From Nitriliruptorales bacterium (GTDB lineage: Bacteria; Actinomycetota; Nitriliruptoria; Euzebyales; JAHELV01), in assembly GCA_024644015.1 (NCBI GenBank), contig JAHELV010000019.1:7628-51139 (forward strand): a stretch of 43,512 bases of DNA, given 5' to 3'. Positions within the stretch are counted from its first letter, which is position 1. Each line of letters opens with the position of its first letter. The notes below the pieces were generated by a model, which saw only the letters and a program-made list of their open reading frames with translations, ran no database searches and was not told the DNA's origin. The position numbers and the translations under genes are program-made. This document shows positions 2,796 through 6,614 of the stretch, piece by piece.

Positions 2796-3524
2796 TTGGC
2801 CGAGCGCCGGGCCTTCGTCCTTGTCCATAGCCCGATCGCCGGACCTGGCACCTGGGAACCGGTCGCTGACACCTTGCGGGACCGCCACGTCGCGACGACC
2901 GTGCCCGAGCTGACCGACGATGGCTCTCCGCCGTTCTGGCGCCAGCACACCCGCTGCGTCGTGCGCGCCATCGCCGAGGATGTCGAGCCCGGCATGCCAC
3001 TCGTGCTCGTCGCGCACAGCGCAGCGGGACAGTTGCTCGGAGTCGTCGGCCCCGTACTGCGTGACGCCGGCTACCGCGTGACGGCCGAAATCCTCGCGGA
3101 CGCCGGTCTGCCGCCGTGCGGACGCAGCCGTCTCGAGCAGCTCGACGACGAGCTGCCTGAGCTCGCAGCGCACGTGCGTTCGCTACTGAACGACGGGTTG
3201 CGGTTCCCGGCCTGGACCGAGGACGACGTGGCTCCGCTCGTTCCCGACGAGAAGCGTCGGAACCAACTGCTCGCACAGCTACGGCCGCCGCCGCCGAGCT
3301 ACTGGGTCGAGCAGATCCCGACGTCGATCGGCTGGCCCGATGCGCCCGTCGGCGCACTGATATTCAGTCACAGCTACGGTCCCACCGTTGAGGCCGCACG
3401 CGACAACGGGTGGCCCGTGCGGGTGCTGGACACCGACAACCACCTGCTGCCGCTCGCCGACGAGGAGCGGGTCGCAGATGAACTGCTCGCCCTCGCTGAC
3501 GAGCTCGCCGCCGATCATGGGTGA
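2796..3524 (+). CDS. Alpha/beta hydrolase fold protein
   Basis: A 242-residue cytoplasmic protein beginning with a typical first strand and oxyanion loop (AFVLVHSPIAGPGTW) and carrying the nucleophile elbow AHSAAG with S75. A plausible catalytic histidine lies in DNHLLPLADEE near residue 221. The start is a TTG at 2796, preceded by AAAGGGG; no better start exists in the frame. It sits 24 nt after the CAP gene and 21 nt before the sulfotransferase-like gene, so co-transcription is likely. Substrate is not predictable: esterase, amidase and haloperoxidase-type enzymes share these motifs. Confidence 0.78.
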   Translation: MAERRAFVLVHSPIAGPGTWEPVADTLRDRHVATTVPELTDDGSPPFWRQHTRCVVRAIAEDVEPGMPLVLVAHSAAGQLLGVVGPVLRDAGYRVTAEILADAGLPPCGRSRLEQLDDELPELAAHVRSLLNDGLRFPAWTEDDVAPLVPDEKRRNQLLAQLRPPPPSYWVEQIPTSIGWPDAPVGALIFSHSYGPTVEAARDNGWPVRVLDTDNHLLPLADEERVADELLALADELAADHG

Positions 3525-3545: not shown

Positions 3546-4286
3546 ATGAGACGCACCGTGCGGGTCGCCATGTGGTCCGGCCCGCGCTCCCTGTCGACCG
3601 CCATGATGCGATCGTGGGGCAATCGCAGCGACACGATCGTCACCGACGAACCGCTGTACGCGCACTACCTCCGCCGAACCGACGCCGACCACCCCGCTCG
3701 GAACCGGATCCTGGCGACGTACGACGCCGACTGGCGGCAGGTGACCCGACGCCTGGCCGGCCCGGCACCCGGTGGGCATGCGGTGTGGTACCAGAAGCAC
3801 ATGACGCACCACGTGACCGACGACGTCGATCTCGACTGGCTCGACGGGCTCCACAACTGCTTTCTGATCCGGACGCCGGCCGAGGTCATCTCCAGCTATG
3901 TCCGTGTTCAGGGACGACCGACCCTCGAGGATCTGGGCCTCCCGCAGCAATGGCGGCTGTTCTCGCACGTCGCCGGGACCGACGCGGTCCCACCGGTCAT
4001 CGACGCGGCGGACCTGCTGCGCGACCCACCGACAGTCCTGGCCGCACTGTGCGATGCCGTCGGCGTCGCCTTCAGTGACCGCATGCTGTCGTGGCCGCCG
4101 GGCCGTCGCGCCACCGACGGGGTGTGGGCGGACCACTGGTACGGCGACGTCGAACGGTCGACGGGCTTCGCGGCGTATCGCCAGCGTGACGTGCAGGTCG
4201 ACCGGCGCTTCGGTGACCTGCTCGCCACGGCCGACGAGATCTACGCGCGTCTGGCGGCCCATCGGCTGATCACCGTGGGCACGTGA
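3546..4286 (+). CDS. Sulfotransferase-like P-loop protein
   Basis: A 246-residue protein with a sulfotransferase-type phosphosulfate-binding loop at the N-terminus (MWSGPRSLSTAMMRSW, residues about 9-24) and a second conserved element LIRTPAEVISSYVRV near residue 115 that corresponds to the 3'-phosphate-binding strand and helix. This subgroup usually sits beside, or is fused to, a class IV aminotransferase, and here the next gene is one. The junction is TGATG, so the two are translationally coupled. It may use PAPS, but no acceptor can be predicted and activity is unproven. Confidence 0.78.
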   Translation: MRRTVRVAMWSGPRSLSTAMMRSWGNRSDTIVTDEPLYAHYLRRTDADHPARNRILATYDADWRQVTRRLAGPAPGGHAVWYQKHMTHHVTDDVDLDWLDGLHNCFLIRTPAEVISSYVRVQGRPTLEDLGLPQQWRLFSHVAGTDAVPPVIDAADLLRDPPTVLAALCDAVGVAFSDRMLSWPPGRRATDGVWADHWYGDVERSTGFAAYRQRDVQVDRRFGDLLATADEIYARLAAHRLITVGT

Positions 4287-5185
4287 TGCTGCAGCAGTTC
4301 GACGAGCGCAACCGGGACCTGCTGATCAACATCTCGGGCAGCCTCGTGCACCGCGACAGTGCCGGCGTCAGCCCCTTCGACTCGGTGGTGCAGGGTGGCG
4401 ACGCGGTGTGGGAGGGGCTGCGCGTCTACGAGGGGCGCGTGTTCCGCCTGACCGAGCACCTCGACCGTCTGCACCGATCGGCCAGGGCACTGGCGTTCGA
4501 TGCGATCCCGTCCCACGAGCGGCTGACACGCGAGCTGCGCCGCACGCTGCGGGCCAACAACATGTCAGACGGCATCCACGTACGCCTGACGCTGACGCGG
4601 GGCGTCAAGTACACCAGCGGCATGGATCCGCGGCTGAACACCGCCGGTCCGACGCTGATCATCGTGGCCGAACACAAACCTGTGGTGTACGACCGCGCCG
4701 GCATACGACTCGTGACGTCGGGTATCCGGCGCATCCCACCGGACTGCGTCGACCAGAACATCCACTCGTGCAATCTGATCAACTCGATCCTGGCCAAGCT
4801 CCAAGCCAACGCGGCCGGGGTCGACGACGCGCTCATGCTCGATCTGCGGGGCTTCGTCGCCGAGACGAACGCGACGCACGTGTTCGTCGTGCGTGACGGC
4901 TCGGTGGCCACGCCGCTCACGATGTCGTGCCCGGAGGGGATCACGCGAGCGGTGGTGCTCGAGCTGTGTGGGGACCATGGCATCGCGGCGGTCGAGCGTG
5001 ATCTGTCGCTGTCCGACGTCTACGGCGCCGACGAGATGTTCTGCACGGGCACCATGGGCGAGCTGGCGCCGGTCATCGAAGTCGACGGCCGTCGGATCGG
5101 CGACGGGCGGCGGGGCCCGGTGACCACCGCACTCACGGACCAGTTCGCCGAGTTCGTTCACGGCAGCGGCACCCGGATCGTCTGA
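4286..5185 (+). CDS. Class IV aminotransferase-like protein, PLP lysine apparently replaced
   Basis: A 299-residue fold-type IV PLP-enzyme homologue (branched-chain/D-amino acid aminotransferase, ADC lyase family). Recognisable blocks are VWEGLRVYEGRVFRLTEHLDRL, VRLTLTRGVKYTSGMDP, SILAKLQANAAGVDDALMLD, GFVAETNATHVF and SCPEGITRAVVLEL. Active family members normally have a Lys in an I-K-S-x-N-x-L motif just before the x-x-L-A-K helix; here the aligned stretch is NIHSCNLINSILAK, placing His160 at that point. The protein may therefore be inactive, use another residue, or do different chemistry. ATG 4286 is preferred over the adjacent in-frame GTG at 4283. It is coupled to the upstream sulfotransferase-like gene. 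Confidence 0.82.
   Translation: MLQQFDERNRDLLINISGSLVHRDSAGVSPFDSVVQGGDAVWEGLRVYEGRVFRLTEHLDRLHRSARALAFDAIPSHERLTRELRRTLRANNMSDGIHVRLTLTRGVKYTSGMDPRLNTAGPTLIIVAEHKPVVYDRAGIRLVTSGIRRIPPDCVDQNIHSCNLINSILAKLQANAAGVDDALMLDLRGFVAETNATHVFVVRDGSVATPLTMSCPEGITRAVVLELCGDHGIAAVERDLSLSDVYGADEMFCTGTMGELAPVIEVDGRRIGDGRRGPVTTALTDQFAEFVHGSGTRIV

Positions 5186-5432: not shown

Positions 5433-6614
<1,182 letters not shown>

Follow-up and report, generated by a model that had tools for sequence, protein, structure and literature searches.

A conserved bacterial pairing of a putative sulfotransferase with a class IV aminotransferase-like protein that lacks the Schiff-base lysine

INTRODUCTION

One way to place an aminotransferase-like protein without its lysine, the signature of PLP enzymes, is to begin with its relatives of known structure. 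The solved structure nearest to the protein considered here (AT) is 7z79, an aminotransferase-like protein of Variovorax paradoxus with asparagine at the lysine position; it is the best PDB match of the AT clade profile (E 1.8e-109), and an N174K mutant of the same protein has been deposited as 9j32. 7z79 has been in the PDB since 2022, so that a missing lysine, taken by itself, was no news to its depositors. Its motif DLRLNSHSRLN and Ser193 assign 7z79 to a branch that has asparagine at the site (N-type) and no partner sulfotransferase (ST5), whereas the AT described here has histidine (H-type), retains Glu193 and is coupled to ST5. Branched-chain aminotransferases (BCATs) of archaea (5mqz and 5e25; about 40% identity) and of E. 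coli (IlvE; 31%) share fold type IV and most cofactor contacts with AT; they differ in carrying a Schiff-base lysine where AT has histidine, and a hydrophobic pocket where AT has His98, Lys108, Lys131 and Trp42.

In plants, BCAT-like proteins that begin with a sulfotransferase domain appear to join the same two domains in one chain. A more distant likeness, drawn here with no claim of homology, is to the 3-dehydratases ColD, E1 and SpnQ, which belong to fold type I. Like AT, these are aminotransferase relatives with histidine for lysine; unlike AT, they act on nucleotide sugars with hydroxyl as the leaving group; in ColD and E1 the histidine replacing the catalytic lysine acts as acid/base in a PMP-dependent dehydration (PMC8987622). 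On the sulfotransferase side, the CurM and OLS enzymes (4gbm, 4gox) sulfonate a beta-hydroxyl before sulfate is lost; unlike ST5, they are domains of polyketide synthases that work, together with a thioesterase, on acyl chains bound to a carrier (PMC3903477). No paper on the 7z79 N-type, on the H-type or on the ST5-AT pairing was found in the open-access literature, nor any on the plant fusion; the ST5 family, PF19798, was found only in lists (PMC11625862, PMC12506393). An uncharacterised activity had been proposed for the pair by an earlier, sequence-only reading, and the pair does look uncharacterised, the wider family being partly known through 7z79 and 9j32.

RESULTS

The gene pair and its products

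The window, a stretch of 43,512 nucleotides from a Nitriliruptorales bacterium, carries the two genes on its forward strand. The first (3546..4286, +) encodes ST5 (P0001; 246 aa), a putative PAPS sulfotransferase of the Sulfotransfer_5 family (PF19798; 194.3 bits, Pfam cut-off 23.2); the second (4286..5185, +) encodes AT (P0002; 299 aa), a class IV aminotransferase-like protein of the H-type, without a Schiff-base lysine. Read directly in the sequence, stop and start overlap as TGATG (4284..4288, +), with TGA at 4284-4286 and ATG at 4286-4288; this ATG is taken as the start of AT, which the open reading frame list begins at an overlapping GTG, 4283. Because stop and start overlap, the translational coupling that had been claimed for the pair is plausible from the sequence. 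A long open frame spans both genes in 6 of 91 bacterial pairs; by their coordinates, the genes lie on opposite strands in three of these and in different frames in the other three. As judged from these sequences, the bacterial genes are separate, not fused.

AT scores 159.3 bits against the class IV aminotransferase domain PF01063 (Pfam cut-off 28.5). It falls below the cut-offs of all 20 NCBIfam families that it matches (TIGR01122, 222.6 bits against 245.55; NF006185, 268.8 against 363) and so is not assigned by these models to the BCATs of the ilvE_I and related families. Elsewhere the same genome encodes another class IV homologue, with 35% identity to AT. The AlphaFold2 model is a confident fold type IV structure (pLDDT 91.9), at Z 33-37 from BCATs and 7z79. 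The chains of the PDB nearest to it are 7z79 (Z 37.3, rmsd 1.8, 295 aligned) and 9j32 (Z 37.0), with archaeal BCATs at Z 35.7-36.8; the top three chains are tied.

ST5 carries a putative PAPS 5'-phosphosulfate loop at residues 11-18 (SGPRSLST; 3576..3599, +), where P13, R14, S17 and T18 are invariant among 79 aligned ST5 proteins, and a putative 3'-phosphate site at residues 109-117 (3870..3896, +), with R109, P111 and S117 invariant in the same set; we take these two segments to be the PAPS 5'-phosphosulfate and 3'-phosphate motifs. The 3'-phosphate site lies within the stretch matched to the CurM and OLS sulfotransferases, a sequence likeness of about 100 residues; these two are the only PDB matches of the ST5 profile up to E 0.1 (3.5e-9 and 2.4e-8, respectively). 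In the AlphaFold2 model (pLDDT 94) the sulfotransferase fold is evident: among the 50 PDB matches listed, 46 are sulfotransferases, including the first 41, a count that takes Teg12 and Teg14 as sulfotransferases. The model matches PAPS sulfotransferases along almost all of its length; 4gox, from an olefin synthase, ranks first (213 residues, Z 14.9) and tyrosylprotein sulfotransferases tie with it (Z 14.8). The genome of the window itself encodes an APS kinase. From motifs and fold we infer that ST5 uses PAPS.

The lysine position and the cofactor contacts

The CAC codon at 4763..4765 (+) places His160 at the position of the Schiff-base lysine. It aligns without gaps with that lysine in the archaeal BCAT 5mqz and lies over Lys159 of E. 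coli IlvE, presumably the Schiff-base lysine, in an alignment that has a single-residue gap a little further along. The only lysines of AT are residues 108, 131 and 171, none of them at the site. Histidine also occupies the site in three distinct proteins of the same genus (L002, L003 and L004; L012, being the L003 contig, is not counted again), in one of the same order (L005) and in AT members from other phyla; as it recurs in genus, order and other phyla, His160 is no sequencing accident. The sequence-only reading, which had put His160 at the lysine position and called for an alignment with BCATs, is thus confirmed: histidine stands opposite the lysine in both alignments, and in the relatives as well.

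Residue counts come from an alignment of 78 H, 35 N and 29 K rows, each named for its residue at 160. Arg46, Glu193, Thr220, Arg221 and Thr256, which we take to be the contacts expected for a PLP cofactor, are kept in 77-78 of the 78 H rows. Glu193 (4862..4864, +), for which we assume the role known from BCATs of pairing with the cofactor pyridine N1, is Glu in 78/78 H and 29/29 K rows and Thr in 35/35 N rows of this set; the L221/L222 branch of the N-type has Ser. Lys171 is common to 16 of the 29 K rows and absent from all 35 N rows, and in the H-type the Schiff base could in principle have moved to Lys108 or Lys131. The H-type very probably does without a lysine Schiff base; that B6 is still bound there is, on balance, probable. 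A separate observation concerns position 164 of the N-type (L019, L085 and L222 are examples), four residues after the lost lysine: it is Lys, replaced by Arg in branches DLR and DMR, where K-types have Tyr, and might reach to the cofactor.

A remodelled substrate pocket

Three residues of E. coli IlvE, Tyr95, Trp126 and Phe36, which we take to line the substrate pocket, are all replaced in AT. His98 (4577..4579, +) corresponds to Tyr95 and is His in 78/78 H and 35/35 N rows, Tyr in 29/29 K rows. Lys131 (4676..4678, +) corresponds to Trp126 and is Lys in 78/78 H, 33/35 N and 0/29 K rows, K-types having mostly Ile. Trp42, by alignment Phe36 of IlvE, is common to the H and N clades and Phe in K-types. 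Lys108 (4607..4609, +), a pocket-loop lysine, is Lys in 78/78 H and 35/35 N rows and Gly in 29/29 K rows, with Arg in some Pseudomonadota N-types outside the 35-row set. By these alignments a hydrophobic pocket is basic in both lysine-less clades; a more anionic substrate would therefore be expected, for example a sulfate ester or a diacid.

A clade without the lysine

Relatives were gathered by scanning the genome collection with an ST5 alignment (the 80 best of 557 confirmed) and by AT searches of genomes. Wherever the site is covered, ATs beside ST5 have His or Asn at 160, never Lys. Because grouping rows by residue 160 and then counting that residue is circular, a tree was used as the test. 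In the careful tree of 71 rows, the 18 K-type rows are divided from all 53 lysine-less rows by a split of 100/100, and the lysine-less side resolves into two sister clades, H with 17 rows (100/98) and N with 36 (100/99); a quick tree built from 92 rows gives the same picture, with support of only 94 for the joint H+N branch. AT of the window falls on the lysine-less side of the K branch and carries the H98/W42/K108 signature. Lysine loss is thus, on the tree, a property of the whole clade. Gene order follows the same division: H-type AT comes after ST5 (ST then AT, or convergent), and N-type AT before it. The H-type includes an orthologue in Actinoplanes cyaneus (L043), and Pseudoxanthomonas carries the pair with an N-type AT. 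Outside H+N, two class IV homologues, each read from a single tblastn alignment, have His (L135, genome G311) and Asn (L133, genome G315) at the lysine site, and their tree neighbours, L136 and L129, have Lys; these are possible further, independent losses.

Co-occurrence of the two proteins

Three phylum-wide samples (296 + 149 + 398 = 843 genomes) contain strong ST5 in 74 genomes and lysine-less AT in 78, with both in 74. Strong ST5 is thus always accompanied by lysine-less AT (74/74; genome G435 is counted through an AT fragment), and lysine-less AT occurs without ST5 in 4 of 78 (G688, G713, G800 and G746). In the phylum of the window (296 genomes), AT matches at E 1e-48 or better occur in 28, of which 16 are lysine-less and 12 K-type; ST5 occurs in 38, and the 16 that reach at least 137 bits are identical to the 16 with lysine-less AT. 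In the phylum of the planctomycete MAG G312, AT matches occur in 62 of 149 genomes: 20 are lysine-less, the G435 fragment (75% identical) ends before the lysine site, and all the rest have Lys, including 33 read separately; ST5 is present in exactly the 21 genomes with lysine-less AT, G435 included. In the phylum of the Competibacteraceae MAG G315 (398 genomes), 41 of 42 AT matches are lysine-less, G534 having Lys, and strong ST5 is found in 37, all within the 41.

These counts depend on thresholds chosen post hoc, strong ST5 meaning at least 137 bits in the window's own phylum and all primary matches elsewhere; 22 own-phylum genomes with weaker ST5 (82 bits or less) and G810 of the G315 phylum (61.9 bits) are left out. 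The weak proteins form a separate ST5 branch (100*), judging from 14 own-phylum examples in the tree. AT matches were accepted up to E 1e-48 in the window's phylum and up to 1e-40 and 1e-50 in the other two, so that weaker lysine-less ATs may escape. Fisher values are 1e-25 or less, with genome kinship ignored and with the K-type G534 entered as lysine-less in the table for its phylum.

Eight ST5 loci have no adjoining AT, and in six of these eight genomes a lysine-less AT is encoded elsewhere; in G316 and G318, where ST5 is present, the search found no AT from the lysine-less P0002 clade, the G316 contig ending 50 bases past ST5. In several genomes, then, the two genes lie far apart and are both present, from which it follows that a shared function is conserved, not mere adjacency. 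The sequence-only reading had taken the pairing as apparently conserved on the strength of eukaryotic fusions; the 74/74 and 74/78 counts bear out the conservation, and ST5 and AT almost certainly form a functional pair.

Genomic neighbourhoods

An all-against-all comparison of open reading frames at 80 loci found no conserved third pathway gene, only lineage-limited neighbours. In the window's genus the syntenic neighbours are a CAP protein, an alpha/beta hydrolase, a UDP-sulfoquinovose-synthase-like gene, GtrA and a glycosyltransferase. Of this neighbourhood only the ST5-AT pair remains in G014, from the next family; a link to sulfoquinovose was dropped, since the pair stands there without the window's neighbours. 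The alpha/beta-hydrolase-like gene (2796-3524, +) ends 21 bases upstream of ST5, has no Pfam or NCBIfam match and is syntenic in the genus; no match to it was found in 13 kb around the G014 pair. The gene at 5433-6605 (-) resembles UDP-sulfoquinovose synthase, with an NF041015 score of 460 bits where the cut-off is 575; genus relatives have it at 88-91% identity, and it may act on another substrate. One genus relative, G003, has two ST5-AT loci (L293 and L294) with the same syntenic neighbours, reflecting either a duplication or a mixed genome bin.

Plasmid-borne ATs provide a different setting. Fourteen loci were read, of 20 matched records; all are N-type, and ST5 was not found near AT at any of the 14. 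Amino-acid ABC transporter genes are directly or nearly adjacent to AT at ten (H2, H4, H9, H11 and H13-H18); elsewhere, H1 has such a transporter a few genes off, H12 a branched-chain ABC transporter, and H6 and H10 TRAP genes. CLC channels are close to AT at H4, H11, H14 and H18 and further off at H10; genes like those for pyrroline-5-carboxylate reductase or ornithine cyclodeaminase occur at H4, H11, H13 and H18. N-type AT with an amino-acid ABC operon and a CLC channel is a recurring cassette (L221, L224, L225 and L286; the channel is ClcB-like in L225), with pyrroline-5-carboxylate reductase in L221, L225 and L286. Choline-sulfatase genes lie near AT at only two of the 14 loci, overlapping it at H17 and about 4 kb on at H13. 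In Mameliella alba, a choline-sulfatase gene (5894-7432 of L290; TIGR03417, 592 bits against 433) shares a 4-base overlap with an N-type AT; read from gene order, this is a second sulfur link of AT besides ST5.

In the 71-row tree ten of the rows without ST5 form one N branch (100/99) whose sisters have ST5; the branch sitting among ST5-bearing sisters, ST5 was probably lost there. For the remaining plasmid-borne ATs, ST5 may be present elsewhere in the genome. The transporter context suggests that N-type AT in such loci acts on an imported amino-acid-like compound. Since the N-types without an adjoining ST5 are mostly in amino-acid transporter operons, AT is likely to be an enzyme, not only a subunit of ST5 or a mere scaffold.

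DISCUSSION

The reading that we tentatively favour, as a possibility, is a sulfonation followed by a PMP- or PLP-assisted elimination of sulfate. That is, ST5 would use PAPS to sulfonate a hydroxyl group on a small anionic compound, probably an amino acid or a keto acid, as family and fold suggest; the basic pocket of AT would take the sulfonated product together with non-covalent PMP or PLP, held by Arg46, Glu193, Thr220 and Thr256; His160, in the lysine's place, would serve as general acid/base; and sulfate would leave by beta-elimination. AT shows in His160 the replacement of lysine by histidine that marks the ColD/E1-type histidine dehydratases, and these (Lys to His, PMP) expel hydroxyl by the same route; by this analogy His160 may be the acid/base of AT. 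The N-type sister clade, with Asn160 and Glu193 lost, would keep the pocket and mostly the ST5 link while standing further from classical PLP chemistry. Taken by itself, sulfate elimination by AT is doubtful, and it is quite unlikely that AT is in full a fold-type-IV counterpart of ColD/E1, derived from branched-chain transaminases and removing a hydroxyl as sulfate with the help of a PAPS sulfotransferase. An orphan activity, serine-sulfate ammonia-lyase (EC 4.3.1.10), would be a speculative candidate for what the pair does.

A second perspective supposes that AT is a pseudoenzyme: with no catalysis of its own, it would serve ST5 as a dimeric scaffold, as an allosteric partner or by presenting the substrate. 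Inactive paralogues act as such partners in other systems. The essential lysine is gone, and in the N-type Glu193 as well; co-occurrence with ST5 is near perfect, and the genes overlap in the window. Distances in the AT tree correlate with those in the ST5 tree (r 0.48 for 51 pairs, 0.70 for 28 H, 0.83 for 23 N; no value as high arose in 500 permutations), a correlation that could also come from shared species history alone. However, ST5 and AT are unlinked in several genomes, no ST5 was found in the genomes of a nested N branch (G688, G713, G800, with G746 a further N-type lacking it), and the plasmid members of that branch, in their amino-acid transporter operons, argue that AT acts without ST5. 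Moreover, the pocket residues are near invariant across phyla, unlike those of a decaying active site. Loss of catalysis is rather unlikely.

A third perspective keeps the ancestral chemistry, a transamination or racemization by other means, with PLP handled through external aldimines and His160 as the base, or with a Schiff base on Lys108 or Lys131. The fold is kept, as are Arg46, Glu193, Thr220 and Thr256; the H-type has three invariant lysines; and the N-type lies among amino-acid transporters. Against this, Glu193 is lost in the N-type and the pocket is no longer BCAT-like. As for a substitute lysine, K108R and K131S variants of the N-type mean that neither residue is universal, and the distribution of Lys171 (16/29 K-types, 0/35 N rows) speaks against that one too; we regard the whole proposal as unlikely.

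The site might instead have been reused without B6, for chemistry such as that of an acid/base lyase, a hydrolase or an isomerase on a sulfated compound. The lysine and, in the N-type, the glutamate that hold PLP are gone, and new basic residues have entered the pocket; with Glu193 lost, cofactor use may be gone from the N-type, and by extension the fold may be used differently in the H-type. Conservation of Glu193, Arg46, Thr220, Arg221 and Thr256 in the H-type is, though, hard to explain unless a phosphate and pyridine are bound, which makes a cofactor-free H-type distinctly improbable. Chance proximity of unrelated overlapping genes, or a misaligned or mis-sequenced lysine codon, can be set aside in view of the gap-free 5mqz alignment, the histidine in relatives and the 74/74 co-occurrence.

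Whichever chemistry applies, a lysine-less clade found in many bacterial phyla, with a near-invariant pocket and one sulfotransferase family as partner, points to an undescribed two-step reaction. If sulfonation and elimination are indeed its steps, the pair would give these phyla, and possibly plants in fused form, a module in which sulfonation drives the deoxygenation or desaturation of some small anionic metabolite. The two proteins, both small and confidently modelled, offer a testable system for a B6 fold that lacks the lysine; many genes whose only names are 'aminotransferase class IV' and 'sulfotransferase' also gain a candidate function.
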